Assembly: GCA_004764695.1 (NCBI GenBank)
Contig: SMSO01000036.1
Coordinates: forward strand, 2,392,001-2,456,000
DNA from: Schizochytrium sp. TIO01
Taxonomy: Eukaryota; Sar; Bigyra; Thraustochytrida; Thraustochytriidae
Length of the DNA: 64,000 nucleotides
Reading direction: 5' to 3'
Part shown: in pieces, positions 24,501-58,846 of the stretch
How the letters are laid out: the number at the start of each line of letters is the position of its first letter
How positions within the stretch are numbered: position 1 is the stretch's first letter
The notes under the pieces: model-generated
The model's input: the letters and a program-made list of their open reading frames with translations, nothing else
The model's database searches: none
Told to the model about the DNA's origin: nothing
Made by a program: the position numbers and the translations under genes

Positions 24501-24703
24501 GATGAGGGTCCTATTGACTGTTAGGGGGCTTAGCGGAAACTCCGAAGTTGGGGAAATGAGATCAAAGCAGATGAATTGAAGAGAAGAGACTGAGACAGAC
24601 CTAGAACCAAAGTCCTCTTGCGGGAAGAGGCTGGCGAGCTCGGAGCGTGCAGGCACGGAGCGAGGCACGGAGCGAGACAGGGTTGTTGCTGCAATAAGCC
24701 ATC
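20641..24703. other. Spacer upstream of the prolyl hydroxylase gene
   Basis: AT-rich, with a CT run at 20937-20953 and a longer one at 21549-21581. No frame over 90 codons has coding-like codon use until about 23.5 kb. GC content rises from 24.1 kb towards the hydroxylase start, consistent with a promoter and leader. The open frame at 24226-24579 (plus) is Arg/Lys-rich and I do not call it. Confidence 0.5.
21549..21581. repeat. (CT)n microsatellite
   Basis: About sixteen CT units. Confidence 0.95.
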
Positions 24704-26380
24704 ATGGGCGAAGATTCTGGCGCCCCGAAGGGCGCAGACAGTGGTAAACCCGCGTCCCCGACATCGCCAACTCCGGCTTCGTCAGCGTCTCAGGGTAGCG
24801 CCTCAAGCACGTTCCTGGGCATCGCGATGTCACTTGCGGGTCTCGTGGCACTCGTTGCGGCCCTTGCAGGCGTCGTGGGCGTGGTTGCGGAGAATAACCC
24901 AAAGCTGAAAGCAGCTGTGGTGGATTTTTTTCCGGAGGAGCTCGTGATTGTCGTCGAAGACGCCACGGGACTCTCGCTGCTCACGCGTGGAGGCTTCAAA
25001 CGCAGCCGCGAGGAGCTCTTGCTCGCCCAAGAGAACACACCTGCTGCCCCTGTGACCTTCTCCGTCCACTTTAACGGAGACGGCCTCAGTGAAGGCGTGC
25101 TTAAGAATTCCGCAGAGTACCCCGGTCTTGACGCCCTTATTTACGAAGCGTGTCTCGAAATTCCCGAGGTCCTTGAGATCGTTGCAGAAGGAGATATCGA
25201 GAAGCATCATGAGATCTGTAAGCCAGAAGAAGGAGCGAAGCTTTTCACAGCAAGAGGCCGGAGAGTACTTTCTTTTCATGATATTGAAGAGGGCCAGCGC
25301 ACGTACGTGGTACCACAGGGACTCCATTTTGTGTGGCCTCTAGGAGAGGTTGGGAGCATATGGACTCCAGATAGCGTGGAGTCGCCGATCCCGAGCAAAC
25401 CGATTCGGCTGAGGCAATTGAGCAAGTCACCGCGGGTATTCACTGTAGAAAATTTTATGTCACCAGAGGAGATGCAGGCGATTTTGGACCATAATAAAGA
25501 CCTCCTGAAACCCAGTGAAGTTGGATTTGCAGGCTGGAGGGATAGCACACGCACAAGCAGTACAGCGTGGGACTTTCACTCATGGGCAGCACGCAAGGTT
25601 CAAAAACGAAGCTTTGACCTCCTCGGCATGGACTTTGATGGGTCTATGGCTGACGCCGTACAGGTGCTACGATACAATATCGCGGAGTGGTACAAGCCGC
25701 ACACCGACTGGTTTGACAAGAAAGCCTATGATGGACATGATCCCAAAATCAACAATGGTACCAACCGCTTCGCTACCGTCTTTCTTTATCTCACTGATGT
25801 CGAAGAAGGTGGACACACTGTCTTCCCACTCTCCACTACGCACGAGGGATACAATGGAGAGCAGCTCGTCCATCCTGGCACTGAGAAAACTGCCGGATAC
25901 ATTGCTCAGCGAGATGCCGAGTGGGTCTGCAACACATCCTCCACTGCACTGCGCTCGCAGCCGAAGGCAGGCAACGCTGTGCTATTCTACAGCCAAGAGG
26001 CCGATGGCTCCCTCGACAAATACAGCCTGCACGGCGGCTGCCCTGTTATTGCAGGCACCAAGTACAGCGCTAATGTTTGGATCTGGAACCGCCCCAAGCC
26101 TGGTAAGGATCAGGCCAAGGATGGCAAGGCAAAGAATGATGACACTAAAATCGAGATGCAGTTTCACAATGCGCGTAATGAGCCTATTGAGCTCTTCTGG
26201 GACAACGGGTCCACAGAGGGCGTCTTTCAAGTTCTCATCGACCCCGGCATGTACTCACCAATGACCACTTATCATGGTCACTCCTTTTTTGCTCGTCCTG
26301 TTGGGAGTGCCGAACGCATCTTCTTTTTCACTGCTAGTGACGCCATGAAGAGTAAGGAGTATGTTGCGCAGATCGTGTAA
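24704..26380 (+). CDS. Membrane-anchored prolyl 4-hydroxylase with a C-terminal VHL-beta-like domain
   Basis: A 2-oxoglutarate/Fe(II) dioxygenase of the prolyl 4-hydroxylase family, 558 aa in one exon with a good start context (CATCATGG). Residues 1-35 are Ser/Pro-rich and 36-62 form one hydrophobic segment, so it is probably a type II membrane protein facing the ER/Golgi lumen. The P4H domain (about 240-462) holds the whole active site: iron ligands H333 and D335 (KPHTDW), distal H443 (LHGGCP), 2-oxoglutarate lysine K453 (GTKYSANVWIW), and the family signature FLYLTDVEEGGHTVFP at 360-375. After a Lys/Asp linker, residues 482-545 resemble the VHL beta domain: FHNARNEPIELFW, IDPG, then TTYHGHSFFAR, matching the order of human VHL up to its SYRGH motif. 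The oxygenase call is firm; the VHL-like call is by eye. A poly(A) signal AATAAA lies at 26600. Confidence 0.92.
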   Translation: MGEDSGAPKGADSGKPASPTSPTPASSASQGSASSTFLGIAMSLAGLVALVAALAGVVGVVAENNPKLKAAVVDFFPEELVIVVEDATGLSLLTRGGFKRSREELLLAQENTPAAPVTFSVHFNGDGLSEGVLKNSAEYPGLDALIYEACLEIPEVLEIVAEGDIEKHHEICKPEEGAKLFTARGRRVLSFHDIEEGQRTYVVPQGLHFVWPLGEVGSIWTPDSVESPIPSKPIRLRQLSKSPRVFTVENFMSPEEMQAILDHNKDLLKPSEVGFAGWRDSTRTSSTAWDFHSWAARKVQKRSFDLLGMDFDGSMADAVQVLRYNIAEWYKPHTDWFDKKAYDGHDPKINNGTNRFATVFLYLTDVEEGGHTVFPLSTTHEGYNGEQLVHPGTEKTAGYIAQRDAEWVCNTSSTALRSQPKAGNAVLFYSQEADGSLDKYSLHGGCPVIAGTKYSANVWIWNRPKPGKDQAKDGKAKNDDTKIEMQFHNARNEPIELFWDNGSTEGVFQVLIDPGMYSPMTTYHGHSFFARPVGSAERIFFFTASDAMKSKEYVAQIV

Positions 26381-33909: not shown

Positions 33910-34257
33910 TTAGCGCTCAATTTGCATTTTAGTACTCGAGTCTACGTGCTCTAGCATATCATGCTGATGAACTCGTTCCATTAAAGCAGTAACGCCAAAA
34001 TTATAATGATTGTGCTGATGTTTGAAGATATCAGACAATGATTTCTTCCAATGACCAGGTCCAAATAAATTTTCAAGACATTTACAAACACATCCACGTT
34101 TGCCGAACGGGCGACAGAGTTTATTACTAAATTTGAGAGTTGCATTGCATAAATGACAGCTCGATCCAATCCAGATGGGCCTGCAGCTCGACCTATGTAA
34201 AGCGATCGCTAGTTTAGTGGTTTGGCCTGGAACCCGTATTGTAGCTCCACAGAGCAA
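33910..34257 (-). CDS. Candidate Cys-rich coding fragment, unknown
   Basis: A minus frame of about 115 codons without an ATG near its 5' end. It contains CHLCNATLKFSNKLCRPFG followed by CVCKCLENLF, an arrangement that could be a zinc-binding finger. The rest (HNHYNFGVTALMERVHQHDM) is His-rich. It abuts the mitochondrial-derived insert on its right. It may be an exon or pseudogene fragment; no firm family. Confidence 0.2.
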   Translation of the reverse strand: MLCGATIRVPGQTTKLAIALHRSSCRPIWIGSSCHLCNATLKFSNKLCRPFGKRGCVCKCLENLFGPGHWKKSLSDIFKHQHNHYNFGVTALMERVHQHDMLEHVDSSTKMQIER

Positions 34258-34284
34258 ACAGATATCCGTAATTCATACCCGGGA

Positions 34285-34577
34285 TTAAACTTTTTCACTT
34301 CACCAACAGTTACTTCTCATTTGATTGTTACCTTTACTTTGTCTGCTTTGGTGTGGGTAGGTAAACTATATGTAGGTATTAAACATCACGGTATTCGTAT
34401 TTTGGGTGTTCTTTTGCCTGGAGTTATTCCTTTTGCAATGGTGCCTTTTTCCGTAGTTGTTGAACTTTTGAGTTTTTTTATTCCTCTAGCCGCATTGGGT
34501 ATTCGACTTTTTGCAAACATGATGGCTGGTCACATTCTTATGAAAGTTATTATAGGTTTTTGTTGGTCTATGCTACT
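34285..34577 (+). pseudogene. atp6: Mitochondrial atp6 (ATP synthase subunit a) fragment, probable NUMT
   Basis: The plus frame encodes the C-terminal half of F1Fo ATP synthase subunit a. It reads FFTSPTVTSHLIVTFTLSAL, later KHHGIRILGVLLPGVIPFAM, then LGIRLFANMMAGHILMKVII and GFCWSML. The IRLFANMMAGH helix carries the essential arginine of the proton channel and is diagnostic. There is no N-terminal half, no start codon at the homology boundary, and the frame passes into unrelated residues to a stop at about 34603. Codons are T-ending, unlike the nuclear genes around it. The fragment is uninterrupted, so the transfer looks recent. An assembly chimera with mitochondrial reads is the alternative. 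Confidence 0.75.
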
Positions 34578-34833
34578 ATCAATCAAACACAGATTTCACT
34601 GTTGAAGGTTCTACAAAGCCTTACTCCAACTATGTAGAACAAACATTATGTTCAAACTTGCATCCAAACGAAAAGAACAAAATTGAACTCATCCTCTGGA
34701 CAAACTGTTCTTACAAGACTTATTCTCAAAAACAAAATTAAGGCGGTTATGAAGGAAGAATATCTCCAAGATCTATTAAAATGCAATCGAAGAATAATCA
34801 AAGCTTGGGCTTATAGGGTGAAGTTTTAGGAAG
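34578..34833. other. Spacer between the atp6 fragment and the LRR-kinase-RBR gene
   Basis: About 255 bp, AT-rich. It should hold the 3' end of the minus-strand LRR-kinase-RBR gene; no canonical AATAAA was seen on that strand. Confidence 0.45.
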
Positions 34834-37516
34834 CTACTCTAGCTCAAATTCAGCCCCAACAATATCTGGAGTTAGCAACGGCTCGAGTTTAGCTCTCAGA
34901 ACGCTTGGAAGACTTCTGCCTTGTATATTTTCGCTCCAGTACATACGCAGACGCTCCGCACGAACCACTCGCCACGCCTCATGCACTTGCTCTGGAGAGT
35001 CAGGATAATATAAGTCGACACTACGTCTTCTGCTGCATTTTCTTATATGAGTGTAGCAAGCTTGCTTGTTCTTGGAGCTGTATTCAAGACACCAAGCACA
35101 AAACCGATGCCCGCAGCCACCATTGCCACAGATCACAGCAGAGCATCCCTCAAATTCGTCAAAGCGAGCCTTACAATTTGGACAGCTCGTAATCAAGAGT
35201 TTTTCTTTCATGTGCTGCAAATGCATCTTTGCTTCTAAGCTCAGCCCGCCTTCTTCAAGAATCACTGCCATGCGCTTTTCAATCTCCTCTTCGACCCGAA
35301 CTAAAGCATCGCTTTCCGCTTTCATCTGCGCGATCCGCAAAAGGTGTCTCAGAGCCCTTGGCGCAAGGCGCGCAATATCTTGGCCCATGATTCTTCCATC
35401 GCATTTAACCTCCACGCATTTCATCGTTCCATCGGCACCCACAGTCACAGAGGCTTCTGGGTCCGTAGCAGCTTCTACTGAGCTTGCGATACAGTCTCGG
35501 CAAAGGAAATGTTCTCTCTCGCAGCACGTGCCCTCGGAAAGCGGGATGTCATCCAAGCATACAGGACACCTTACTAAAGGGTCTGCGGCAACCCCGAATG
35601 CCTCAAGCGCTTCAACGGCACTTGGACGATGCTCAGGATTTATCGCTTTGAGAGAGTTTATGAGCGACTGTATTGCAGATGTTCGCTCACGGGGATATAG
35701 CTTCTCTAGGACTACACCCACAGAGTACATATCCATTGCAGTTTCGAACCTGTCTACGGGCCCAGTCTGCAATTCAGGAGCAAGGTACTGTGCCGTCGCC
35801 TGAAGAGATGTGTATGTTGCTGTGGAATCCGCTACTTTCATACCATCGAAATCCCCAAGCAGTGGGGTCTCGATACTCGTGAGGAAGATGTTCTCTGGCT
35901 TGATGTCGCAGTGTACGATGTTCAGAGCATGCATGTCAGCCACCCCAATGAGTAAGCCTGAGGCAAGTCGGTTCCGCGTAGCTTTGTCTGCGTTGGGGTG
36001 TTTTTCAATCCACTCCGCCAAGTTGCCTTGCTCGTAGAAAGGCATCACGATGCATCCGCGTGGTACTTCGTGTACGATACTAACGAAGGCACCGATAATG
36101 CGGATTACATGATGCGAAGCTACCTTGCCTAGATTCGCAACCTGCGTGTAGAATGCCCTAATTTGACTTGGATGCCCGAGTTGAAACTGCTTCAGAACGA
36201 GGCTTCTGCCGGTGCTGTCTAACACCTTTTGTACTGTCTTACCACCCCTTGAAGCCAGAAGCTCTCCAACAGGCTGGAAATCCGAAATTTCTACGTTTGC
36301 TAGCCAGAGATCAGAACAAGCCACCTCAAGGACACCGTCTGCACTTACATGTACCTTTTTGAGCCATGCTTGGTTTTTTAGTAGTTCTGGGTAATGCTCC
36401 TGCGCGTGTTGCAGAGTTTCGGCAAGTTTATGCCGAAATGTTTTGCTCAGCTCGACAGGGCTACCTTCGGAGAGAATAAGCTCTTGTTTTTTGATTCGAC
36501 GCTCGAAGTACGCTTTATCTTCTTCCTCCAGGCCCTTCCCCTCGAGGTCTCTTTTGGCTCTCTTGATAATTTCCGTCGCATCTCGCGACCTGCCAAGTTT
36601 CTCGTATAGCTCTTCAACACAAGAGACATTGGTTTCCTTCGAACTCAAAAGTACATAGTCGTATAACTCCGCAATGTCCTCCGGTGAAAGAGTGATAGGT
36701 TCATCTACCTTGAAGTCTTGCGTTGATTTCTCCAAAGCATCAAATACTGAGCTAATAGCGCACAGTACTTCTGTCACTGTGCCACGAAACGTATCTCCTT
36801 TCAGGTCTTCAAGCTCTTCCTGCAGAGCATTTTGAAGTTCAGAAAGCTCAGGCTTCAGTCTCGTGGCCTTTTCAGGCTCCCTCATAGCAACCCTGAATGC
36901 GTCACCAAGTCCCAACTCACTCACTCGCAAGATGACTTTTTCCACCGCTGCTTCGCTTCGTTGATTAACGTTACTCTGATAACTGCTTTGGCTCGCCTTG
37001 TACTCTTTGACGCACTTGTCAGCCCGACCAAGCAACTCCTGGCAGCCTTTGAAGTCAGCCGCACATGCACGTTCAACCGATGATGTGCCACTTATGCTCA
37101 GACCCTGCAACAAACTGGCAAGCCTTTCCTTAAAGTCACGAACTTGAATCTCATTGCTTTCGTAGAACCCAGTCCGAACCCAAGGGTGCACATTTTGCAC
37201 GAGTGAACGCAGGCGCATTCTTTCATCGTTTCGCTCCGCAATGAGCTGAGATAAACCAGCCGGAGAGCTTTCACGAATCCGGGCTTGGCAAGATTCTAAT
37301 CGTTCTTTGGAGTTCGTGATGTCACTGGAAGTCTGTTTCAACTTCAATTGAACAAAGTGGCCTTGAATGACTGGTCCTGCGAACTCCTCAAACAATGCAA
37401 TCGCGGTCTGCAGGGAGTCCTCTCTAGCCACACCAAGGCCTGCCCGCGTGTGCGAGACTTCCTTGGCGAGTTGGACCACGTCAGCAAAGCTCACCCCACC
37501 CATGTCCGGTGGTTCT
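34834..37516 (-). CDS. Last exon of the LRR gene: coiled coil, protein kinase and RBR-like zinc modules
   Basis: Read alone from ATG 37503 this is an 889-aa protein; numbering here follows that ATG. Residues 1-400 are charged and helical (coiled coil likely). Residues 410-640 are a protein kinase: Gly-rich turn SRGGKT (418-423), VAIK-type lysine K438 (LVLKQF), catalytic loop HCDIKPEN (531-538), metal site D551 in DFDG (551-554, normally DFG), APE at 576-578. A RING-like finger follows (C646, C649, C660, H665, C668, C671), then a helical spacer. The Cys cluster C774 to C823 (CPNC, EGC, CGHRFCAWC, then C816, H819, C823) resembles RING2 of RBR ligases, where the Cys of the (G)GC motif forms the ubiquitin thioester; here that would be C787. 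A canonical IBR between the two fingers is not obvious. GC-rich coding codons throughout. Confidence 0.9.
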
Positions 37517-40500
37517 CTGAGGTATGGTTGGCGAAACGCAGTAATAGCAGATGCTCAAGTCAGGATTCCATTCGATAGATGCTTCAGCACAGCTCGTGCA
37601 CCAGACATTTATTTCAATCACGACGGAGAGACTCAATACCCCTACACCAAAGAATCAAACTTACATAGCATCTTCTGAGCTCTTGGGCTCTGGACAAGGT
37701 TCGTTCCCCTCATGAATGGAGACACAGGAATCAGGGTCCGGGGCTGTAATATCCTCTCCAGGAGTACACACCTTTGCAAACAATTCTTTGGGGGTTATGT
37801 AGCCTCCAAACTCACACCTGTGTCAAGTCAATCAAATATTCAATACGAGGTCTCGTGAGAACAACAATTCGTGAATTTCAAGACAGCCTTGCAGCTCCAG
37901 GACCGACATTGATGACACAGCCTAGGCAAACCTGACAGCTAGCTGCGAGCGACGACGGAACTTACCAGATTCTAACAGAAGGGCATGTTTTGTGCAGAGA
38001 TTTAGCAATTGCCTTGGCGCCGTCGATGCCGATGTTATTGTGTTGGAGACTGTGTGGTCACCAATAAGCGATTGCAATGTCGCGACATGTCAGTTCAGTG
38101 CGTTCGATTCTCGACGGTATTGAGCCGCACCCATATACTGCACCACTCTCCTTTCCTTGTGTTCGATCTTGGGATTTGGCAAAAGGCCGCTTCGGTTGTT
38201 GCTCTTTACCAACGGTTCACCCATTTATTCCCTGCATTCCTCATGTCCGTAAATATTTAGTGCTCTTTCATTGACTGTTTCTTTCTCGCTCTGTATTTCC
38301 TTTTTTTTTCTCTCTCTCTCTCCAGTTTCGAATCTCAGCGCGCAGCTCTCTTTCTGCCCTCTTTCTGCTCTACAAACGTACTCCAATTGAGTGAGGTTTT
38401 TGCATCCCTTCAGTGCTTTGGCGACTGCCTTTGCGCCCTCAGAGCCAATGTTGTTCTGCTTAAGACTGTGTACGAGTATTTTCCATTCGTTGTGCAATAC
38501 AATTATTACGCGTCAGTCACTTGAGTGTTTTCCAATACTCCAAACAAGCGCTTCCCCGCCACCACAGGAACCCAAACAGCGTTCTCAACGTCATGTTCTG
38601 TATGTGCTGTATCTCTATAATTCTTCTCTCCTCAATCAATGAAACGTTGTGCATTCTGTTTCCATGATAACTCATCACCGTTGCTATCTCTTGCTCTGTT
38701 CCTGAAAGCGCTTCTTCAAGATCTACCGCCCAATCTTGAACTTTATGTCCTCAATTCTCTGTCTTTGCAAGGTGACTTTCCCGTTTTATCAACTTCGCAA
38801 CTCAGCGCAGCGCAAGTTTTCGATTTTACGAACGTACTTCACTATCGTCAGCTTCTCGCAACCCTCAAGAGCGTTGGCGACTGCCTTTGCGCCCTCTGTG
38901 CCAATGTTGTTCTCGCCAAGACTGTGGAGTAAATATCAAATATCATTCGTTGTGCAATCCAATGATTACAAGTCAGTCAGTCAGTCAATCAGTCAGTGAG
39001 ATCGTGAACTGCTTTCATGTCTGCGTCTCAAGTTCTTCTGCGAAGCAATACTTCTTCAACTTCACAACACTGATTCTCTACATTCGCATTCTCTGCTCTG
39101 CTCTGTCTGTCTTTGCATCATTCGTCCTCAGCATTCGAAATCCTACTCATCGCTTTTGACAGTTCTTTTTGAGTTTGTTTTCACATCATTTCTTCGGTTC
39201 TTTCTTTCCAAACAAAGGAACTCTTCTGCAACACATATTTTTTTCTCTCTTTGGTCTCTCTTCTTTCTTTCGTTCCGAGTCGACCATTTCTCTTCTTTTT
39301 CTTTTTCTTTTTCGTTTTCGCATCTCAAAGACTGAAATGAAATACGAAACAGCAGACTTTTCCAAACGTACTACAATTCAGTGAGGTCTTTGCATCCCTT
39401 CAGTGCTTTGGCGACTGCCTTTGCGCCCTCAGAGCCAATGTTGTTCTGCTCAAGACTGTGTACGAGTATTTTTCATTCGTTGTGCAATACAATTATTACG
39501 CGTCAGTCACTTGAGTGTTTTCCAATTCTCCAAACAAGAAGGAACTCTTCTGCAACACATATTTTCTCTCTTTGGTCTCTCTTCTTTCTTTCGTTCCGAG
39601 TCGACCATTTCTCTTCTTTTTCTTTTTCGTTTTCGCATCCCAAAGACTGAAATGAAATACGAAACAGCAGACTTTTCCAAACGTACTCCAATGTAGTGAG
39701 GTCTTTGCATCCCTTCAGTACTTCGGCGACTGCCTTTGCGCCCTCAGAGCCAATGTTGTTCTGCTCAAGACTGTGTACGAGTATTTTCCATTCGTTGTGC
39801 AATACAATTATTACGCGTCAGTCACTTGAGTGTTGCTTTCCAATACTCCAAACAAGCGCTCCCCCGCCACCACAGGAACCCAAACGGCGTTCTCAACGTC
39901 ATGTTCTGTATGTGCTGTATCTCTATAATTCTTCTCTCCTCCATCAACGAAACGTTGTGCATTCTGTTTCCATGATAACTCATCACCGTTGCTATCTCTT
40001 GCTCTGTTCCTGAAAGCGCTTCTTCAAGTTCTGTCGCCCAATCTTGAACTTTATGTCCTCAATTCTCTGTCTTTGCAAGGTGACTTTCCCGTTTTATCAA
40101 CTTCGCAACTCAGCGCAGCGCAAGTTTTCAATTCTACGAACGTACTTCACTATTGTCAGCTTCTCGCAACCCTCAAGAGCGTTGGCGACTGCCTTTGCGC
40201 CCTCTGTGCCAATGTTGTTCTCGCCAAGACTGTGGAGTAAATATCAAATATCATTCGTTGTGCAATCCAATGATTACAAGTCAGTCAGTCAGTCAATCAG
40301 TCAGTGAGATCGTGAACTGCTTTTATGTCTGCGTCTCAAGTTCTTCTGCGAAGCAATACTTCTACAACTTCACAACACTGATTCTCTACATTCGCATTCT
40401 CTGCTCTGCTCTGTCTGTCTTTGCATCATTCGTCCTCAGCATTCAAAATCCTACTCATCGCTTTTGACAGTTCTTTTAGAGTTTGTTTTCACATCATTTC

Positions 40501-43500
40501 TTCGGTTCTTTCTTTCCAAACAAAGGAACTCTTCTGCAACACATATTTTCTCTCTTTGGTCTCTCTTCTTTCTTTCGTTCCGATTCGACCATTTCTTTTT
40601 TTTTTTCTTTTTCGTTTTCGCATCTCAAAGACTGAAATGAAATACGAAACAGCAGACTTTTCCAAACGTACTACAATTCAGTGAGGTTTTTGCATCCCTT
40701 CAGTACTTCGGCGACTGCCTTTGCGCCCTCAGAGCCAATGTTGTTGTCCCCAATACTGTGTTTGGTTGGGTATCCCATTCGTTGTGCAATACAATCAATA
40801 CTACTCAGTCAATCGCTGTCCATCTGAATGCCTTCTTTCTTCTCGTGTCTTCAGAGAACTAAGAATGTCTCTCTCAGCGCCATTCTTCGTTGTCTCTGCA
40901 ATATTCATCCGCACTTTCAAATTCACCACTTTCGTGGGAGTGCGATTTCTCTATTTTTTTATTTTTTCCCCCCCAAATAATCGAATTTTGCTTATTCTTC
41001 CTTGCAACTTTAATCTTTGAAAGAGTGTTCTTGAAAGATCATATATGTGTTCGCTCTTTCTTTTGTGCGTCTGTTTTATTACTTTCTCTCATTCTCTCTT
41101 TCCGAACCATAACGCATCGATAGTATGATGGTACCATAACTACTGCGCAGTGGAGATTCAACACGATCATAAAACATACCTCAATATGGTGAGATTATCA
41201 CGATCTTTCAGTGCGTTTGCGATGGCTTTTATGCCCTCTTCGCCAACGTTGTTCTGGTCAAGACTGTGTTCATGTCATTGGTTGTTAGAAGAGAATATTT
41301 TCAAAGTTAGTAAAAAGCTGCATTACTTGAGAAGTGTTCTTTTAACATCACTACTCGAATGGCAGAACTTTCTCTCTTTTCGCTGTGAGGAATCGTTGTT
41401 CTGAAGAGTCTTCCTTCTCTCGATAAGTACCAACATTTAAGCAACACGTATATTGCTTCTGTACACTTCATTGTTGTTCTGCAAACTTTTACTCCGATTA
41501 CACCTTCCTTTTTTATATTATATTATTTTTTCATGTTTTTCAATTAAAAATTAAAATGAACAATTGGTACTGTTCTTTTCCTCTTTGAAAGAAGGCCCCC
41601 ATCACTAACTACCAATGTGGGTACTCTTTCAAACAGCTGTTGTATAGACTTATATATCAATCAAACGTACCTCAAGTCAGTGAGACTCTTGCATCCCTCC
41701 AGAGCGATTGCGATGGCCTTTGCGCCCTCTGTGCCGATTTTGTTGTAATCGAGGCTGTTTTGTGCAACACAACAAATACGAGTCAGTCAGTCAACCGCTT
41801 TCATGTCTGCGTCTCAAGTTCTTCTGCGAAACAATACTTCTACAACTTCACAACACTGATTCTCTACATTCGCATTCTCTGCTCTGCTCTGTCTGTCTTT
41901 GCATCATTCGTCCTCAGCATTCAAAATCCTACTCATCGCTTTTGACAGTTCTTTTTGAGTTTGTTTTCACATCATTTCTTCGGTTCTTTCTTTCCAAACA
42001 AAGGAACTCTTCTGCAACACATATTTTCTCTCTTTGGTCTCTCTTCTTTCTTTCGTTCCGAGTCGACCATTTCTCTTCTTTTTCTTTTTCGTTTTCGCAT
42101 CCCAAAGACTGAAATGAAATACGAAACAGCAGACTTTTCCAAACGTACTCCAATGTAGTGAGGTCTTTGCATCCCTTCAGTGCTTTGGCGACTGCCTTTG
42201 CGCCCTCAGAGCCAATGTTGTTCTGGTAAAGACTGTGTACGAGTATTTTCCATTCGTTGTGCAATACAATTATTACGCGTCAGTCACTTGAGTGTTGTTT
42301 TCCAATACTCCAAACAAGCGCTCCCCCGCCACCACAGGAACCCAAACAGCGTTCTCAACGTCATGTTCTGTATGTGCTGTATCTCTATAATTCTTCTCTC
42401 CTCAATCAATGAAACGTTGTGCATTCTGTTTCCATGATAACTCATCACCGTTGCTATCTCTTGCTCTGTTCCTGAAAGCGCTTCTTCAAGTTCTGTCGCC
42501 CAATCTTGAACTTTATGTCTGTCTTTGCAAGGTGACTTTCCCGTTTTATCAACTTCGCAACTCAGCGCAGCGCAAGTTTTCGATTCTACGAACGTACTTC
42601 ACTATTGTCAGCTTCTCGCAACCCTCAAGAGCGTTGGCGACGGCCTTTGCGCCCTCTGTGCCAATGTTGTTCTGTGAAAGACTGTGTAGTAAATAGCAAA
42701 TATCATTCGTTGTTCAATCCAATGAATACAAGTCAGTCAGTCAGTCAGTCAATCAGTCAGTGAGATCGTGAACTGCTTTTATGTCTGCGTCTCAAGTTCT
42801 TCTGCGAAGCAATACTTCTACAACTTCACAACACTGATTCTCTACATTCGCATTCTCTGCTCTGCTCTGTCTGTCTTTGCATCATTCGTCCTCAGCATTC
42901 AAAATCCTACTCATCGCTTTTGACAGTTCTTTTTGAGTTTGTTTTCACATCATTTCTTCGGTTCTTTCTTTCCAAACAAAGGAACTCTTCTGCAACACAT
43001 ATTTTCTCTCTTTGGTCTCTCTTCTTTCTTTCGTTCCGAGTCGACCATTTCTTTTTTTTTTTTTTCTTTTTCTTTTTCCTTTTCCTTTTCGCATCTCAAA
43101 GACTGAGATGAAATACGAAACAACAGACTTTTCCAAACGTACTACAATGTAGTGAGGTTTTTGCATCCCTTCAGTACTTCGGCGACTGCCTTTGCGCCCT
43201 CAGAGCCAATGTTGTTGTCCCCAATACTGTGTTTGGTTGGGTATCCCATTCGTTGTGCAGCACAATCAATACTACTCAGTCAATCGCTGTCCATCTGAAT
43301 GCCTTCTTTCTTCTCGTGTCTTTAGAGAACTAAGAATGTCTCTCTCAGCGCCATTCTTCGTTGTCTCTGCAATATTCATCCGCACTTTCAAATTCACCAC
43401 TTTCGTGGGATTGGGATTTCTCATTTTTTTCATTTTCCCCCCCCAAATAATCGAATTTTGCTTATTCTTCCTTGCAACTTTAATCTTTGAAAGAGAGTTC

Positions 43501-46500
43501 TGGAAAGATCATACGTGTGTTTGCTCTTTCTTTTGTGCGTCTGTTTTCTCACTTTTTCCCATTCTCTCTTTCCGAACCAAAACGCATCGATAGTATGATG
43601 GTACCATAACTACTGCGCAGTGGAGATTCAACACGCTCATAAAACATACCCCAATGCCGTGAGATTATCACGATCTTTCAGTGCGTTTGCGATGGCTTTT
43701 ATGCCCTCTTCGCCAACGTTGTTCTGGTAAAGCCTGTGTTCATGTCATTGGTTGTTAGAAGAGAATATTTTCAAAGTTAGTAAAAAGCTGCATTACTTGA
43801 GAAGTGTTCTTTTAACATCACTACTCGAATGGCAGAACTTTTTCTCTCTCTCTTTTCGCTGTGAGGAATCGTTGTTCTGAAGAGTCTTCCTTCTCTCGAT
43901 AAGTACCAACATTTAAGCAACACGTATATTGCTTCTGTACACTTCATTGTTGTTCTGCAAACTTTTACTCCGATTACACCTTCCTTTTATATATTATTAT
44001 TATTTTTTCATGCTTTTCAATTGAAAAATAAAATAAACAATTGGTACTGTTCTTTTCCTCTTTGAAACAAGGCCCCATCACTAACTACCAATGTGGGTAC
44101 TCTTTCAAACAGCTATTGTATAGACTTATATATCAATCAAACGTACTGCAAGTCAGTGAGACTCTTGCATCCCTCCAGAGCGATTGCGATGGCCTTTGCG
44201 CCCTCTGTGCCGATTTTGTTATTAGAGAGGCTGGTTTGTGCAACACAACAAATACGAGTCAGTCAGTCAACTGCTTTCATGTCTGCGTCTCAAGTTCTTC
44301 TGCGAAACAATACTTCTACAACTTCACAACACTGATTCTCTACATTCGCATTCTCTGCTCTGCTCTGTCTGTTTTTGCATCATTCGTCCTCAGCATTCAA
44401 AATCCTACTCATCGCTTTTGACAGTTCTTTTTGAGTTTGTTTTCACATCATTTCTTCGGTTCTTTCTTTCCAAACAAAGGAACTCTTCTGCAACACAAAT
44501 TTTTTTCTCTCTTTGGTCTCTCTTCTTTCGTTCCGAGTCGACCATTTCTTTTTCTTTTTCTTTTTCCTTTTCGCATCCCAAAGGCTGAAATGAAATACGA
44601 AACAGCAGACTTTTCCTAACGTACTACAATTTAGTGAGGTCTTTGCATCCCTTCAGTGCTTTGGCGACTGCCTGTGCGCCCTCAGTGCCAATGTTGTTCT
44701 GCTTAAGACTGTGTACGAGTATTTTCCATTCGTTGTGCAATACAATTATTACGCGTCAGTCACTTGAGTGTTTTCAATACTCCAAACAAGCGCTCCCCCG
44801 CCACCACAGGAACCCAAACAGCGTTCTCAACGTCATGTTCTGTATGTGCTGTATCTCTATAATTCTTCTCTCCTCAATCAATGAAACGTTGTGCATTCTG
44901 TTTCCATGATAACTCATCACCGTTGCTATCTCTTGCTCTGTTCCTGAAAGCGCTTCTTCAAGTTCTGTCGCCCAATCTTGAACTTTATGTCTGTCTTTGC
45001 AAGGTGACTTTCCCATTTTACCAACTTCACAACTCAGCGCAGCGCAAGTTTTCAATTCTACGAACGTACTTCAATACTGTCAGGTTCTCGCACCCCTCAA
45101 GAGCGTTGGCGACGGCCTTTGCGCCCTCTGTGCCAATGTTGTTCTCGCCAAGACTGTGTAGTAAATATCAAATATCATTCGTTGTGCAATCCAATGATTA
45201 CAAGTCAGTCAGTCAGTCAGTCAGTCAGTCAATCAGTCAGTGAGATCGTAAACTGCTTTCATGTCTGCGTCTCAAGTTCTTCTGCGAAGCAATACTTCAA
45301 CAACTTCACAACACTGATTCTCTACATTCGCATTCTCTGCTCTGCTCTGTTTTGGCATCATTCGTCCTCAGCATTCAAAATCCTACTCATCGCTTTTGAC
45401 AGTTCTTTTTGAGTTTGTTTTCACATCATTTCTTCGGTTCTTTCTTTCCAAACAAAGGAACTCTTCTGCAACACATATTTTCTCTCTTTGGTCTCTCTTC
45501 TTTCTTTCGTTCTGGGTCGACCATTTCTTTTTCTTTTTCTTTTTCGTTTTCGCATCTCAAAGACTGAAATGAAATACGAAACAGAAGACTTTTCCAAACG
45601 TACTACAATTCAGTGAGGTTTTTGCATCCCTTCAGTACTTCGGCGACTGCCTTTGCGCCCTCAGAGCCAATGTTGTTGTCCCCAATACTGTGTTTGGTTG
45701 GGTATCCCATTCGTTGTGCAGCACAATCAATACTACTCAGTCAATCGCTGTCCATCTGAATGCCTTCTTTCTTCTCGTGTCTTCAGAGAACTAAGAATGT
45801 CTCTCTCTCAGCGCCATTCTTCGTTGTCTCTGCAATATTCATCCGCACTTTCAAATTCACCACTTTCGTGGGAGTGCGATTTCTCATTTTTTATTTTTTT
45901 CTCCCCAAATAATCGAATTTTGCTTATTCTTCCTTGCAACTTTAATCTTTGAAAGAGTGTTCTTGAAAGATCATATATGTGTTCGCTCTTTCTTTTGTGC
46001 GTCTGTTTTCTCACTTTTTCCCATTCTCTCTTTCCGAACCAAAACGCATCGATAGTATGATGGTACCATAACTACTGCGCAGTGGAGATTCAACACGCTC
46101 ATAAAACATACCCCAATGCCGTGAGATTATCACGATCTTTCAGTGCGTTTGCGATGGCTTTTATGCCCTCTTCGCCAACGTTGTTCTGGTAAAGCCTGTG
46201 TTCATGTCATTGGTTGTTAGAAGAGAATATTTTCAAAGTTAGTAAAAAGCTGCATTACTTGAGAAGTGTTCTTTTAACATCACTACTCGAATGGCAGAAC
46301 TTTTTCTCTCTCTCTTTTCGCTGTGAGGAATCGTTGTTCTGAAGAGTCTTCCTTCTCTCGATAAGTACCAACATTTAAGCAACACGTATATTGCTTCTGT
46401 ACACTTCATTGTTGTTCTGCAAACTTTTACTCCGATTACACCTTCCTTTTATATATTATTATTATTTTTTCATGCTTTTCAATTGAAAAATAAAATAAAC

Positions 46501-49500
46501 AATTGGTACTGTTCTTTTCCTCTTTGAAACAAGGCCCCATCACTAACTACCAATGTGGGTACTCTTTCAAACAGCTATTGTATAGACTTATATATCAATC
46601 AAACGTACTGCAAGTCAGTGAGACTCTTGCATCCCTCCAGAGCGATTGCGATGGCCTTTGCGCCCTCTGTGCCGATTTTGTTATTAGAGAGGCTGGTTTG
46701 TGCAACACAACAAATACGAGTCAGTCAGTCAACTGCTTTCATGTCTGCGTCTCAAGTTCTTCTGCGAAACAATACTTCTACAACTTCACAACACTGATTC
46801 TCTACATTCGCATTCTCTGCTCTGCTCTGTCTGCCTTTGCATCATTCGTCCTCAGCATTCAAAATCCTACTCATCGCTTTTGACAGTTCTTTTTGAGTTT
46901 GTTTTCCCATCATTTCTTCGGTTCTTTCTTTCCAAACAAAGGAACTCTTCTGCAACACATATTTTCTCTCTTTGGTCTCTCTTCTTTCTTTCGTTCCGAG
47001 TCGACCATTTCTTTTCTTTTTTCTTTTCCCTTTTCGCATCCCAAAGGCTGAAATGAAATACGAAACAGCAGACTTTTCCTAACGTACTACAATGTAGTGA
47101 GGTCTTTGCATCCCTTCAGTACTTTGGCGACTGCCTTTGCGCCCTCAGTGCCAATGTTGTTCTGCTTAAGACTGTGTACGAGTATTTTCCATTCGTTGTG
47201 CAATACAATTATTACGCGTCAGTCACTTGAGTGTTTTCCAATACTCCAAACAAGCGCTCCCCCGCCACCACAGGAACCCAAACGGCGTTCTCAACGTCAT
47301 GTTCTGTATGTGCTGTATCTCTATAATTCTTCTCTCCTCAATCAATGAAACGTTGTGCATTCTGTTTCCATGATAACTCATCACCGTTGCTATCTCTTGC
47401 TCTGTTCCTGAAAGCGCTTCTTCAAGATCTACCGCCCAATCTTGAACTTTATGTCCTCAATTCTCTGTCTTTGCAAGGTGACTTTCCCGTTTTATCAACT
47501 TCGCAACTCAGCGCAGCGCAAGTTTTCGATTCTACGAACGTACTTCACTATCGTCAGCTTCTCGCAACCCTCAAGAGCGTTGGCGACGGCCTTTGCGCCC
47601 TCATCGCCAATGTTGTTCTGTGAAAGACTGTGTACGAGTATTTTCCATTCGTTGTGCAATACAATTATTACGCGTCAGTCACTTGAGTGTTTTCCAATAC
47701 TCCAAACAAGCGCTCCCCCGCCACCACAGGAACCCAAACGGCGTTCTCAACGTCATGTTCTGTATGTGCTGTATCTCTATAATTCTTCTCTCCTCAATCA
47801 ATGAAACGTTGTGCATTCTGTTTCCATGATAACTCATCACCGTTGCTATCTCTTGCTCTGTTCCTGAAAGCGCTTCTTCAAGATCTACCGCCCAATCTTG
47901 AACTTTATGTCCTCAATTCTCTGTCTTTGCAAGGTGACTTTCCCGTTTTATCAACTTCGCAACTCAGCGCAGCGCAAGTTTTCGATTCTACGAACGTACT
48001 TCAATACTGTCAGCTTCTCGCAACCCTCAAGAGCGTTGGCGACGGCCTTTGCGCCCTCTGTGCCAATGTTGTTCTCGCCAAGACTGTGTAGTAAATATCA
48101 AATATCATTCGTTGTGCAATCCAATTATTACAAATCAGTCAGTCAGTCAGTCAATCAGTCAGTGAGATCGTGAACTGCTTTCATGTCTGCGTCTCAAGTT
48201 CTTCTGCGAAGCAATACTTCAACAACTTCACAACACTGATTCCCTACATCCGCATTCTCTGCTCTGCTCTGTCTTTGCATCATTCGTCCTCAGCATTCAA
48301 AATCCTACTCATCGCTTTTGACAGTTCTTTTTGAGTTTGTTTTCACATCATTTCTTCGGTTCTTTCTTTCCAAACAAAGGAACTCTTCTGCAACACATAT
48401 TTTTTTCTCTCTTTGGTCTCTCTTCTTTCTTTCGTTCCGAGTCGACCATTTCTTTTTTTTTTCTTTTTCTTTTTCTTTTTCGTTTTCGCATCCCAAAGGC
48501 TGAAATGAAATACGAAACAGCAGACTTTTCCTAACGTACTACAATTGAGTGAGGTCTTTGCATCCCTTCAGTACTTCGGCGACTGCCTTTGCGCCCTCAG
48601 AGCCAATGTTGTTGTCCCCAATACTGTGTTTGGTTGGGTATCCCATTCGTTGTGCAGTGCAATCAATACTACTCAGTCAATCGCTGTCCATCTGAATGCC
48701 TTCTTTCTTCTCGTGTCTTCAGAGAACGAAGAATGTCTCTCTCAGCGCCATTCTTCGTTGTCTCTGCAATATTCATCCGCACTTTCAAATTCACCACTTT
48801 CGTGGGAGTGCGATTTCTCATTTTTTAATTTTTTTCCCCCCAAATAATCGTATTTTGCTTATTCTTCCTTGCAACTTTAATCTTTGAAAGAGAGTTCTGG
48901 AAAGATCATACGTGTGTTTGCTCTTTCTTTTGTGCGTCTGTTTTCTCACTTTTTCCCATTCTCTCTTTCCGAACCAAAACGCATCGATAGTATGATGGTA
49001 CCATAACTACTGCGCAGTGGAGATTCAACACGCTCATAAAACATACCCCAATGCCGTGAGATTATCACGATCTTTCAGTGCGTTTGCGATGGCTTTTATG
49101 CCCTCTTCGCCAACGTTGTTCTGGTAAAGACTGTGTTCATGTCATTGGTTGTTAGAAGAGAATATTTTCAAAGTTAGTAAAAAGCTGCATTACTTGAGAA
49201 GTGTTATTTTAACATCACTACTCGAATTGCAGAACTCTCTCTCTTTTTTCGCTGTGAGGAATCGTTGTTCTGAAGAGTCTTCCTTCTCTCGATAAGTACC
49301 AACATTTAAGCAACACGTATATTGCTTCTGTACACTTCATTGTTGTTCTGCAAACTTTTACTCCGATTACACCTTCCTTTTATATATTATTATTATTTTT
49401 TCATGCTTTTCAATTTAAAAATAAAATGAACAATTGGTACTGTTCTTTTCCTCTTTGAAACAAGGCCCCATCACTAACTACCAATGTGGGTACTCTTTCA

Positions 49501-50257
49501 AACAGCTGTTGTATAGACTTATATATCAATCAAACGTACCTCAAGTCAGTGAGACTCTTGCATCCCTCCAGAGCGATTGCGATGGCCTTTGCGCCCTCTG
49601 TGCCGATTTTGTTATTAGAGAGGCTGGTTTGTGCAACACAACAAATACGAGTCAGTCAGTCAACTGCTTTCATGTCTGCGTCTCAAGTTCTTCTGCGAAG
49701 CAATACTTCTACAACTTCACAACACTGATTCTCTACATTTGCGTTCTCTGCTCTGTCTGTTTTCCTTCAGCATTCAAGTTCTATTCAATGTTTTTTACTT
49801 CTTCTTGAGTTTGATTCGTATCATTTGTTCGGTTCATTCTTTCATTCTTTCCAAAGAAAGAAACTCCTCTGCAACAAATACTTTCTCTCTTTGGTCACTC
49901 TTCTTTCTTTCCGAGTCCGAGTCGATCATTTTTCATTCTTTTTTAACATTCCAAAGGCTGAAATGAAGCACCGAATAGTAGACTTTTCAAAACTTACTCC
50001 AATTTAGTGAGGTTCTTGCATCTCTTGAGTGCATCTGCGAGGGCCTGAGCCTGCACAGCGCATATGTTCATGTTACGCAGCCTATGTTTGTTGGAGATCA
50101 AGGTATGCGATTCTCAGTTCATTAGTTCTAAATCTTAGCTTTAAAATAAATTGCTCAAAGGCCATGCCTCGATCTGTCTACCCCTCTCTCCAGCATGCAC
50201 TTACAGCACCTGCGTCGTATCATTGGTGATTGCCCCGATACTCCATGCAGTCGTCAT
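34834..50257 (-). CDS. LRR array - coiled coil - protein kinase - RBR-type ubiquitin ligase, 1690 aa, 29 exons
   Basis: Reconstructed by hand as one gene: exon 1 (50205-50257, MTTAWSIGAITNDTTQV and a split codon), 26 exons of exactly 84 nt each coding one 28-residue LRR, a linker exon (37665-37817), and a last exon (34834-37516). All introns are GT-AG and all junctions keep phase; the coding total is 5073 nt, divisible by three. The LRRs are of the NOD3/ribonuclease-inhibitor class (LxxNNIGxEGAKAVAxALxxCxxLT). The last exon supplies a helical region, a kinase and zinc-binding RING modules. There is no signal peptide, so it is probably cytosolic. By analogy with LRR receptors, the LRRs may sense a ligand that switches kinase and ubiquitin-ligase output; that is inference. 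The join between the LRR part and the kinase part rests on one splice (37517-37664). If it is wrong there are two genes. Confidence 0.8.
37517..37664 (-). other. Deciding intron between the LRR part and the kinase part
   Basis: On the minus strand the LRR part reaches GCT ATG TAA. The AT is followed by a perfect GTAAGT donor (37664-37659) that contains the apparent stop. The acceptor ACCTCAG ends at 37517. Joining AT to A gives ATA and continues GAA CCA CCG GAC ATG GGT in the frame of the kinase-RBR exon. The 148-nt length suits this gene. No other stop-free join was found. Confidence 0.7.
37665..37817 (-). CDS. Linker exon after the LRR array
   Basis: Follows acceptor GACACAG and reads (W)CEFGGYITPKELFAKVCTPG, then an acidic Pro/Ser/Glu tail to SSEDA and a split codon. 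It closes the LRR solenoid (the last LRR ends SVRIW) and leads into the coiled-coil region. If the next intron is not removed, translation ends here at TAA 37661-37663, giving an LRR-only protein of about 797 aa. Confidence 0.75.
39687..41754 (-). repeat. Higher-order LRR unit 4 (A-B-C-D-E), slightly diverged
   Basis: Five exons. The A exon has LDYNKIG instead of LSNNKIG and the B exon LDQNNVG instead of LYQNNVG. It is followed downstream by four more exons in the order E-D-E-terminal (39455 to 37966). Confidence 0.85.
42149..44230 (-). repeat. Higher-order LRR unit 3 (A-B-C-D-E)
   Basis: Five exons, near-identical to unit 2 in both exons and introns. Offsets between equivalent exons to unit 4 are about 2470-2476 bp. 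Confidence 0.88.
44625..46692 (-). repeat. Higher-order LRR unit 2 (A-B-C-D-E)
   Basis: Five exons in the same order as unit 1 without D'. The A and B exons and the intron between them are almost identical to unit 3, about 2462 bp away. Confidence 0.88.
47088..49623 (-). repeat. Higher-order LRR unit 1 (A-B-C-D-D'-E)
   Basis: Six exons. Type A begins LSNNKIGTEG, B LYQNNVGEEG, C IGDNNIGSEG, D LGENNIGTEG, D' LSQNNIGDEG, E LKQNNIGTEG. This copy has one extra D-type exon and its intron (about 456 bp) compared with units 2-4, so its spacing to the next copy is about 2.93 kb. Confidence 0.85.
50205..50257 (-). CDS. First coding exon of the LRR-kinase-RBR gene
   Basis: ATG at 50257 (context GACAATGA), 17 codons plus two bases, then a GTAAGT donor at 50204-50199. 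The split codon CT|G joins exactly to the first LRR exon (G CTG CGT). The peptide is short and polar with no signal sequence. An upstream non-coding exon cannot be excluded. Confidence 0.65.
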
Positions 50258-57613: not shown

Positions 57614-58846
57614 TTACTGAGCACTGCCTCCGAGTCCAAGCATGGACCAGATAGTTCCCGAAGATCCGGCCGCTTGCTGTGCAGGTGCTTCCTCCTCCTG
57701 CGCCTTCTGTCCCGGGGGTGGGAGGTTGTTTGCCTGATCAATCGGCGTCATACCCATTGGCATTGGCGCCATCTCTGGTTGCGGTGCCGCCGCAGCTTCG
57801 GCGTGCTGAGGCTGGTGCTGAGCAGGTCCTCCAAACAGTGCTCCCTTGCGGATCGCGCCTCCGAGAGTTCCTCTCTGTTGCTGCTCGCGCTGGGCATTGC
57901 GTTCCATGAGTTCCTGCTTGAAAGCAGCTCCAATATCCTTGCCCTTGTACTTGGCAAGCTCGCGGCGCACGTCTTCAGGATCGCGCATTGCAAGGTCCTC
58001 AAGGAAGGGCACAAGGTCGTAGAGAACACGGTCCTCCTGGGTAGGGTCATTGAAGGGCTTGACGGGGATGAGGTTCTCAGACTGTTTGGGAACGGCCTCC
58101 GGCTTGTCATCAATCATAATGACTCTCTCAAGCGGACGGTTGAGGTGCGAGAGGTCCTTGATGTGCTCACCGTTCTCGTACACAGTGGCCTCGCGGAAGA
58201 GCTTGGACTGCATGACGCCAGAGGTGTCAAGGCTGTACACGAAAGGTTCAAGAAAGAAGCTGTTGCCGCTTGTGAAGAGCACAATCTCATAGAACATAGC
58301 GAGTCGGTTCAAGAAGTAGTCAGCACCAGGACGCTTCGCAGCACGCCAGCCATGGCGAGAGTCCCACTCCAAGTGGCAAAGTGTGTCCTCAAAGTCCAAG
58401 ACCAGGGTCATCGGCTGCGTCATACCAGCGGGAAGGGTGTCCGCAGGGAAGTCCGGAAGAAGCTTGTCGCTAATGGGGTCCGTGAAGGACTTCATAGATG
58501 TCTTAACTTGGTCACTGGCCCAATCCACAGCATCTCCAAGAGGGGTGCCCTTGTAGACATTCTGCATGAACCACTTGTTGGCATCCGGGTGAAATGTGAA
58601 GAAGGCACCGACTCCAGCCACACCACCAAGACCCAAAAGCCAGCCAAGGGTGCTTGTTCCACCTTCGGCGTCGCGAAGGAGAGCCTCGTCCTTCTCACGG
58701 CGCTTGGCTGCGAGCTTCTCAGCAATCTCGCGGTTCTTCGTGGCCTTGGAAGAGGACGAAGACGAAGTAGTGCACAGAGAACGCTTTGTGCAGGAAACCT
58801 CACGACGGGCGGTAGTCCGCGCGAGCGTAACGATGGAGCGCAGCAT
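57614..58846 (-). CDS. TIM50: TIM50, receptor subunit of the TIM23 inner-membrane translocase
   Basis: TIM50 sits in the mitochondrial inner membrane and passes presequence proteins from the TOM complex to the TIM23 channel. The 410-aa protein has an Arg/Ser/Thr-rich presequence (1-35), a charged helix, one hydrophobic segment (67-84, GWLLGLGGVAGVGAFFTF) and an FCP1/NLI-type HAD domain (about 144-300). The HAD nucleophile motif reads LVLDFEDTL (148-156), followed by RPGADYFLNRLAMFYEIVLF and the LFREAT and DLSHLNR blocks that mark TIM50. The usual second Asp of DxD is Glu (D151-F-E153-D154), so phosphatase activity is doubtful, as is general for TIM50. The AAFKQELMERNAQREQQQ stretch also matches TIM50. 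A Pro/Gln/Ala-rich tail (340-395) is extra. Single exon; start ATG at 58846. A long plus-strand frame over it is a shadow. Confidence 0.93.
   Translation of the reverse strand: MLRSIVTLARTTARREVSCTKRSLCTTSSSSSSKATKNREIAEKLAAKRREKDEALLRDAEGGTSTLGWLLGLGGVAGVGAFFTFHPDANKWFMQNVYKGTPLGDAVDWASDQVKTSMKSFTDPISDKLLPDFPADTLPAGMTQPMTLVLDFEDTLCHLEWDSRHGWRAAKRPGADYFLNRLAMFYEIVLFTSGNSFFLEPFVYSLDTSGVMQSKLFREATVYENGEHIKDLSHLNRPLERVIMIDDKPEAVPKQSENLIPVKPFNDPTQEDRVLYDLVPFLEDLAMRDPEDVRRELAKYKGKDIGAAFKQELMERNAQREQQQRGTLGGAIRKGALFGGPAQHQPQHAEAAAAPQPEMAPMPMGMTPIDQANNLPPPGQKAQEEEAPAQQAAGSSGTIWSMLGLGGSAQ

Follow-up and report, generated by a model that had tools for sequence, protein, structure and literature searches.

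A leucine-rich repeat, kinase and two-finger gene of Schizochytrium sp. TIO01 and its large family with hypervariable repeat exons

Does one gene on contig SMSO01000036.1 of the thraustochytrid Schizochytrium sp. TIO01 (assembly GCA_004764695.1) join a long array of leucine-rich repeats (LRRs) to a protein kinase and a ubiquitin-ligase-like module, and does it stand alone in the genome? The window analyzed here, a stretch of 64,000 nucleotides (nt) covering positions 2,392,001 to 2,456,000 of the forward strand, had been given a first-pass annotation from its letters, which proposed one giant gene encoding 26 LRRs, a kinase and an RBR-type ubiquitin ligase in a single frame of 1690 codons and 5073 nt. 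The single gene held up, but it has many paralogs, and in the recent arrays of this large family each LRR exon has four hypervariable codons; this changes its interpretation from that of a lone giant gene. We consider it reasonably likely that the family serves non-self recognition by LRR binding coupled to kinase and ubiquitin signaling, and we hold the gene structure and the hypervariable family with much higher confidence than that role.

One gene or two

Rebuilding the gene from the sequence yielded a minus-strand gene from 50257 to 34834 (window positions) with 29 exons, whose 5073 nt form one frame of 1690 residues and a stop, so that the codon count, frame and 26 repeats proposed earlier are exact. 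First comes a start exon of 53 nt, followed by the 26 LRR exons, each of exactly 84 nt and together reaching from 50081 to 37966; a linker exon of 153 nt and a cassette exon of 2683 nt complete the gene. In Pfam searches, the N-terminal 804 residues matched LRR_6 (1.1e-129), and the 906-amino acid (aa) cassette open reading frame (ORF) matched Pkinase (2e-25), while the zinc fingers fell under the Pfam cut-offs. The features are listed below, with the LRR exons based on an 84-nt exon pattern scan and the rebuilt gene model.

50205..50257, minus strand, exon 1 (53 nt, phase 2 at its end), with the start codon and an N-terminal cap, MTTAWSIGAITNDTTQV
49998..50081, minus strand, LRR exon 1 (84 nt)
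49540..49623, minus strand, LRR exon 2 (84 nt)
49047..49130, minus strand, LRR exon 3 (84 nt)
48540..48623, minus strand, LRR exon 4 (84 nt)
48000..48083, minus strand, LRR exon 5 (84 nt)
47544..47627, minus strand, LRR exon 6 (84 nt)
47088..47171, minus strand, LRR exon 7 (84 nt)
46609..46692, minus strand, LRR exon 8 (84 nt)
46112..46195, minus strand, LRR exon 9 (84 nt)
45604..45687, minus strand, LRR exon 10 (84 nt)
45070..45153, minus strand, LRR exon 11 (84 nt)
44625..44708, minus strand, LRR exon 12 (84 nt)
44147..44230, minus strand, LRR exon 13 (84 nt)
43650..43733, minus strand, LRR exon 14 (84 nt)
43143..43226, minus strand, LRR exon 15 (84 nt)
42598..42681, minus strand, LRR exon 16 (84 nt)
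42149..42232, minus strand, LRR exon 17 (84 nt)
41671..41754, minus strand, LRR exon 18 (84 nt)
41180..41263, minus strand, LRR exon 19 (84 nt)
40672..40755, minus strand, LRR exon 20 (84 nt)
40146..40229, minus strand, LRR exon 21 (84 nt)
39687..39770, minus strand, LRR exon 22 (84 nt)
39372..39455, minus strand, LRR exon 23 (84 nt)
38838..38921, minus strand, LRR exon 24 (84 nt)
38382..38465, minus strand, LRR exon 25 (84 nt)
37966..38049, minus strand, LRR exon 26, capping repeat SLHKTCPSVRI (84 nt); similar cap in paralogs
37665..37817, minus strand, linker exon CEFGGYITPKELFAKV..., 153 nt, phase 2; homologs in paralogs
34834..37516, minus strand, cassette exon: helical region, kinase, RING1, linker, RING2/Rcat-like finger, C-tail and stop
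36295..37500 (ends approximate), minus strand, region between LRRs and kinase, putatively helical, inferred from letters
35590..36291 (ends approximate), minus strand, protein kinase domain; the Pkinase match (2e-25) covers 36240-35695
36192-36190, minus strand, kinase VLK Lys codon
35907-35905, minus strand, kinase HCD Asp codon
35853-35851, minus strand, kinase DFD Asp codon
35401..35568, minus strand, RING1-like finger with eight candidate ligands C-C-C-H-C-C-C-C, from a 26-sequence alignment
35185..35400, minus strand, 72-residue linker at the position of the RBR IBR; no IBR-like Cys column set
35035..35184, minus strand, RING2/Rcat-like finger; HHARI RING2 matched at 1.5e-4, RNF4 similarly or better
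35145-35143, minus strand, catalytic-type Cys codon of RING2 (cassette residue 804); Cys in 26 of 26 sequences

The initial pattern scan also gave 84-nt candidates that were dropped: six intronic ones reading IIEIQHIQ..., one reading GAVYGC... and one inside the cassette (SVFDAL...).

The 906-aa cassette ORF was compared with the window's own 64.06-Mb genome, which returned 51 alignment rows representing at least 43 places with a whole or partial cassette, at least 23 of them full-length and without stops; the place count is a lower bound, with 50 of 268 first-look candidates scored. Because the ORF recurs in this way, and because the same exons and splice phases recur across the paralogs, a chance ORF or an artefact of hand splicing is ruled out. 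LRR exons of 84 nt lie upstream of the cassette in all 20 close paralogs that were fetched (loci bearing L numbers below), with 2 to 12 exons within the fetched stretches. A start exon approximating MTxAxxIxxIxxDTTxI was located by script upstream of the arrays in 14 of these 20 loci and was spotted by eye in two more (L014 and L027); it was not found in L016, L018, L019 or L022. This conserved short exon encodes no obvious signal peptide, as judged by eye. A homologous linker exon is present in L009 and L010 and in three of four further loci examined (L013, L017 and L022), with no candidate in the fourth, L024.

An ATG early in the cassette exon (Met18, near 37503) would permit two adjacent genes, namely an LRR-only gene ending at the linker exon and a kinase-ligase gene beginning at Met18. 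However, Met occupies that site in only two of the 23 sequences with a residue at it, those of the window and L009, which speaks against an independent gene downstream, and most full-length paralog rows match from residue 9-12, ahead of Met18. Together with a spliced frame that closes across 29 exons with no stop, and with the LRR exons found upstream of the cassette in every close paralog, this makes a pair of genes very improbable.

A family with hypervariable repeat exons

Members of the family are concentrated toward contig ends: nine of the 43 cassette places lie less than 50 kb from an end, where no more than 2.5 would be expected (P 7e-4), and 11 lie less than 100 kb from one, where no more than 5.0 would be expected (P 0.008). 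Stops are present in 12 of the 51 alignment rows. For L010 and L027, which carry stops, alignments took only their open fragments, and a run of N in L023 was left as is. Four cassette copies or fragments stand in tandem within about 22 kb at G000:C31:8490350-8511851.

Five divergent members were also fetched. L029, L030, L032 and L033 have 10, 13, 15 and 11 LRR-like 84-nt exons, respectively, per a motif filter, and their arrays have short introns and repeats unlike each other. For the fifth, L031, no 84-nt LRR exon was found in the approximately 3 kb upstream. L031 (G000:C31:6275300-6281300) is the most divergent member fetched, and its kinase reads HCN in place of HCD. The presence of 84-nt LRR exons in four of these five suggests that the architecture predates the recent expansion, with the near-identical arrays looking like a younger state.

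All 26 LRR exons of the window are symmetric, each 84 nt long, in phase 2 and encoding one LRR, and any number of them keeps the frame because every exon starts and ends at the same codon phase. The solved-structure matches of these LRRs include ribonuclease inhibitors, NLRP3 and 5irm, which we take to be NOD2. Array length differs between close relatives: the window gene has 26 LRR exons and its nearest paralog, L009, has seven in the stretch fetched, with a cassette synonymous divergence (dS) of 0.08. L019 and L020, whose cassettes have zero counted differences, also differ, in that L020 has one extra LRR unit (LHTNN...) located beside the cap, past the units that both share; this may reflect subtelomeric exchange or an assembly effect. 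The two loci are located at the ends of contigs C35 and C32. Each has two units that keep the LRR scaffold without an AG acceptor at the expected exon start; such units may be skipped in splicing, and they are uncounted here since the exon motif filter demands AG...GT.

When the 28 residues of each repeat are counted with the exon's first Leu as 0, entropies are 3.0-3.3 bits at positions 1, 2, 25 and 27 and below 2 everywhere else, across 105 inner repeats out of the 147 exons passing the motif filter. These are the exposed concave-strand residues of x-L-x-L-x-x-N in LRR folds. Within arrays (213 of 444 pairs, intron divergence up to 25%, nine loci), the proportions of nonsynonymous and synonymous differences (pN and pS) are 0.455 and 0.237 at the four hypervariable codons and 0.054 and 0.088 at the scaffold codons, while the introns differ by 0.035; diversification at the concave sites is thus shown by counting methods and not by a likelihood site model. 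The window taken by itself, with 30 same-subtype pairs, has differences of 0.023 in introns, 0.203 at hypervariable sites and 0.015 in the rest of the exon. Between the window and L009, 4 to 7 of the 11 hypervariable nucleotides differ in each of the five units compared, with introns 4-7% apart.

The scaffold is in places identical letter for letter. In 22 exons from seven loci, the 60 nt of the 20 codons outside eight variable ones are the same, yet positions 1 and 2 of these exons hold 11 and 10 distinct codons, respectively; a 33-base scaffold pattern retrieved 69 genome matches, and its reversed control none. Among variable codons, the front ones (1 and 2) are unlinked to the back ones (25-27; z -1.8 to 1.5), and codons 24-27 are strongly linked among themselves. 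Codon 7, which lies between the two patches, shows linkage in both directions, with codon 1 (z 5.0) and with codons 25-27 (z 3.3-4.7), and this leaves the patches partly dependent on each other in these sequences. From this pattern of linkage, variants appear to be reshuffled inside the 84-nt exon, though not freely. The 22-exon and linkage analyses omit the window, L009 and L010, whose repeat subtypes differ.

We also considered whether the four codons are altered by a locally targeted process instead of by ordinary mutation and selection. Among 27 unit pairs with at most three intron differences over at least 300 bp (from L012, L015, L017 and the window), the average difference at the 11 hypervariable nucleotides is 26%, with one pair differing at nine of the 11 and four pairs at none. 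In a per-position profile of seven loci with ungapped flanks, the Leu codon between two hypervariable codons varies at its first and third positions (0.33 and 0.49), mostly silently and in some cases to Val, the third positions of codons 16-22 vary at 0.00, and the intron starting two nucleotides further on is near 0.01 (the 5' intron value of 0.079 is inflated by indels). However, a comparison of L024 with L026 gives 26 differences over 1790 aligned array-region bases but no change within the four LRR exons compared, and codons 24-27, the tail patch, move as linked blocks, which would fit the shuffling of old variants. On balance we think a targeted process quite unlikely; if real, it could be germline or somatic. 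Adenine-only diversification in the style of retroelements was rejected, as the codon lists at the four positions, inspected by eye, have no adenine-template pattern.

The kinase and the two zinc fingers

The first-pass assignment of a protein kinase agrees with both the Pkinase match and the conservation of catalytic residues across an alignment of 26 sequences, in which the Lys, Asn, DFG Asp and APE Glu are present in all 26 and the HCD Asp in 25. The position of the alpha-C Glu, assigned by eye, is occupied by Gln in 25 sequences and Asn in one, and the DFG motif reads DFD in all 26. The median ratio of nonsynonymous to synonymous substitution rates (dN/dS) is 0.36 in the helical region, 0.16 in the kinase and 0.29 in the ring module, with no pair above 1, and 0.22 in the C-tail, where one of 163 pairs is above 1; these values come from pairs of 19 sequences, with pairs of dS at or below 0.05 excluded and 159-169 of 171 pairs used.

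These constraints bear on whether the protein might be a housekeeping or developmental scaffold whose relaxed repeats drift and reshuffle without any role in recognition. Repeat arrays do expand and contract, and the stops described above are compatible with relaxation. Nevertheless, the four codons change 13-fold more than the adjoining introns, the change is restricted to concave-face positions and the kinase is under purifying selection, and we see hardly any likelihood in simple drift.

Downstream of the kinase are two finger-like segments. In RING1, seven Cys are present in all 26 sequences and the fourth ligand is His in 10 and Asp in 16; its profile best matched a two-copy RNF4 chain (1.6e-4), and the RBR RING1 of RNF144A was a weak match (E 3). 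RING2 has its catalytic-type Cys in 26 of 26 sequences, and its candidate ligands are invariant except that a single member has lost one Cys to replacement. A profile built from eight segments of RING2 best matched RNF4, a conventional RING (8.3e-8 for a two-copy chain and 1.3e-4 to 0.003 for single-copy chains), and matched the RBR RING2 of HHARI (1wd2) at 1.5e-4, about equal to the best single-copy RNF4, and parkin (5caw) at 0.036. The alignment to HHARI is collinear through the catalytic Cys. Between the two fingers, no IBR-like (BRcat) Cys column set was found in the 26 sequences; the columns with Cys or His in at least 12 of 26 are three His and one Cys (790) abutting RING2, and the IBR_1 and IBR_2 Pfam matches are sub-threshold and placed on RING2. 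A His two residues past the catalytic Cys is a general RBR feature, and the HHARI His at this position is Ala here in 14 of 14 rows.

The label of RBR-type ligase is thus borne out for RING1 and for an Rcat-like finger with an invariant catalytic-type Cys, and it fails for the IBR and for the His at +2. As in the RBR ligases HHARI and parkin, RING1 is followed by a C-terminal finger with a Cys at the catalytic position; unlike them, the window's family is without an IBR/BRcat and without the His, and is fused to LRRs and a kinase (the RBR order is given as RING1-BRcat-Rcat in the excerpt of PMC3940038 on which this comparison draws). A modest RBR-like reading is suggested by the Cys spacing and by the modest profile match to HHARI. 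With no IBR, no His and RNF4 as the best match, ubiquitin transfer may differ from that of RBR enzymes.

The same features allow for an output that is a scaffold, with the kinase as an atypical switch and the zinc fingers binding proteins without ubiquitin transfer. The missing alpha-C Glu, the DFD motif, the two absent RBR features and the preference of the RING2 profile for a conventional RING would all fit a scaffold. Against it stand the invariant catalytic-type Cys, the other zinc ligands (25-26 of 26, except for the His or Asp of RING1) and the retention of the kinase Lys and, in all but one sequence, the HCD Asp. We regard a scaffold output as doubtful, though it deserves serious attention. 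A profile of the ring module run against the viral and prokaryotic collections viral_contigs and genome_contigs gave 107 and 41 pattern matches, respectively, of which none was confirmed, a negative that does not extend to other protists.

Proposed role and comparison with known systems

Under the non-self recognition reading, the window gene would encode one of the cytosolic receptors of a large family that evolves fast. The ribonuclease-inhibitor-type LRRs, one per exon, would form an arc whose concave strand positions bind ligand. Arrays grow and shrink as units of exon plus intron are added or lost. The scaffold and introns would be held near-identical by recent duplication or gene conversion, and diversifying selection together with reshuffling would alter the four exposed codons of each repeat. 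A bound ligand would free the C-terminal cassette, upon which the kinase would phosphorylate a partner or itself, RING1 would recruit a charged ubiquitin-conjugating enzyme (E2), and the Cys of the RING2/Rcat-like finger would accept ubiquitin and hand it on to a substrate. The binding part of this scheme draws on the sequence statistics and the output part on the conserved catalytic residues. The likely role would be non-self recognition, taken broadly to cover viruses, microbes and other strains, as argued by analogy with the systems compared below.

We would like to note that several observations weigh against this proposal. Part of the family is decaying, as seen from the stops, and L031 combines HCN for HCD with no LRR exon found in the stretch upstream. 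The L024 and L026 pair, without LRR change, indicates that change is not constant and would make no simple clock. The units of L019 and L020 that keep their scaffold and lack an acceptor may not contribute to the protein. With no alpha-C Glu and with DFD for DFG, the kinase may be weak or regulatory, and the second finger, in a protein missing the IBR and the His, has a conventional RING as its best match. Finally, recognition in development, adhesion or mating would leave similar marks.

A related alternative retains the same anatomy and supposes as ligands polymorphic self proteins that are encountered when cells touch or fuse. The NWD genes het-d and het-e of Podospora have a similar signature, with WD40 repeats that are near-identical, evolve in concert and carry four positively selected residues each (from the portion of PMC1805685 consulted). 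The window's family resembles them in being a gene family with near-identical repeats, concerted evolution, four selected residues per repeat and some inactivated members, and differs in having LRRs in place of WD40 and NACHT, each repeat in its own exon, long near-identical introns and a kinase-ligase-like output. In our judgement at least 43 places seems many for such a system, and we think self ligands unlikely.

For non-self recognition, the closest parallel in gene structure is with the brown-algal ROCO proteins (LRR-ROC-COR), which the excerpt of PMC11378527, citing Zambounis et al. 2012, presents as exon-shuffled candidate immune receptors with 72-nt phase-2 LRR exons, positively selected concave sites 14, 16, 18 and 19, and reported alternative splicing. 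Both families belong to stramenopiles and have one LRR per phase-2 exon, array turnover and four diversified concave sites, and the spacing of the sites is equal (14, 16, 18 and 19 in the algae; 25, 27, 29=1 and 30=2 here). They differ in that the repeats of the window's family are of ribonuclease-inhibitor type and 84 nt long instead of 72, and in that the output is a kinase with two fingers and no GTPase instead of ROC-COR.

The first-pass annotation had noted the lack of NACHT or ROC domains, and Pfam scans of the N-terminal part and the cassette likewise detected no NACHT, NB-ARC or ROC-COR domain in either, so that membership in the NLR or LRRK families was rejected. The family is like the NLRs NOD2 and NLRP3 in its ribonuclease-inhibitor-type LRRs and its expansion, and unlike them in the absence of NACHT/NB-ARC, the N-terminal placement of the LRRs and the kinase-ligase-like output. 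Like LRRK/ROCO kinases and oomycete LRR receptor kinases, it has LRRs and a kinase in one protein (PMC3019232, in part); unlike LRRK/ROCO, it has no ROC-COR and has a two-finger module. In that oomycete kinome text, IBR and RING are absent as whole words. In open-access literature, among the matches listed and at the level of titles and abstract beginnings, no LRR-kinase-RBR-like protein and no hypervariable LRR family in labyrinthulomycetes is described. Since the logic of diversification is already known and no matching architecture is among those matches, only the output cassette appears to be new.

If the non-self recognition reading is true, a further lineage of stramenopiles would possess exon-shuffled receptors with tuned LRR faces, coupled to a different output, and a kinase and ubiquitin transfer would be combined in a single chain with no nucleotide-binding switch. 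The family would also allow tests of how receptor diversity originates in single-celled eukaryotes, including the use of introns as recombination tracks, and it may reveal means that protists have against viruses or rivals.

Just downstream of the gene, a fragment of a mitochondrial-type ATP synthase subunit a (34213-34602, plus strand; ATP-synt_A 4.4e-24) is probably a nuclear copy of mitochondrial DNA, as it lies in a nuclear contig. Three other ORFs of the window look ordinary: one matching the CEP104 N-terminal domain (60083-62836, plus strand), one matching an NLI-interacting-factor-like phosphatase (57617-58996, minus strand) and one matching a 2OG-Fe(II) oxygenase (24698-26377, plus strand). 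Elsewhere in the genome, ten tandem acyl carrier protein (ACP) domains about 330 bp apart occur in one open frame of 2172 aa (G000:C4:611495-614707), an arrangement that fits a thraustochytrid-type polyunsaturated fatty acid (PUFA) synthase.

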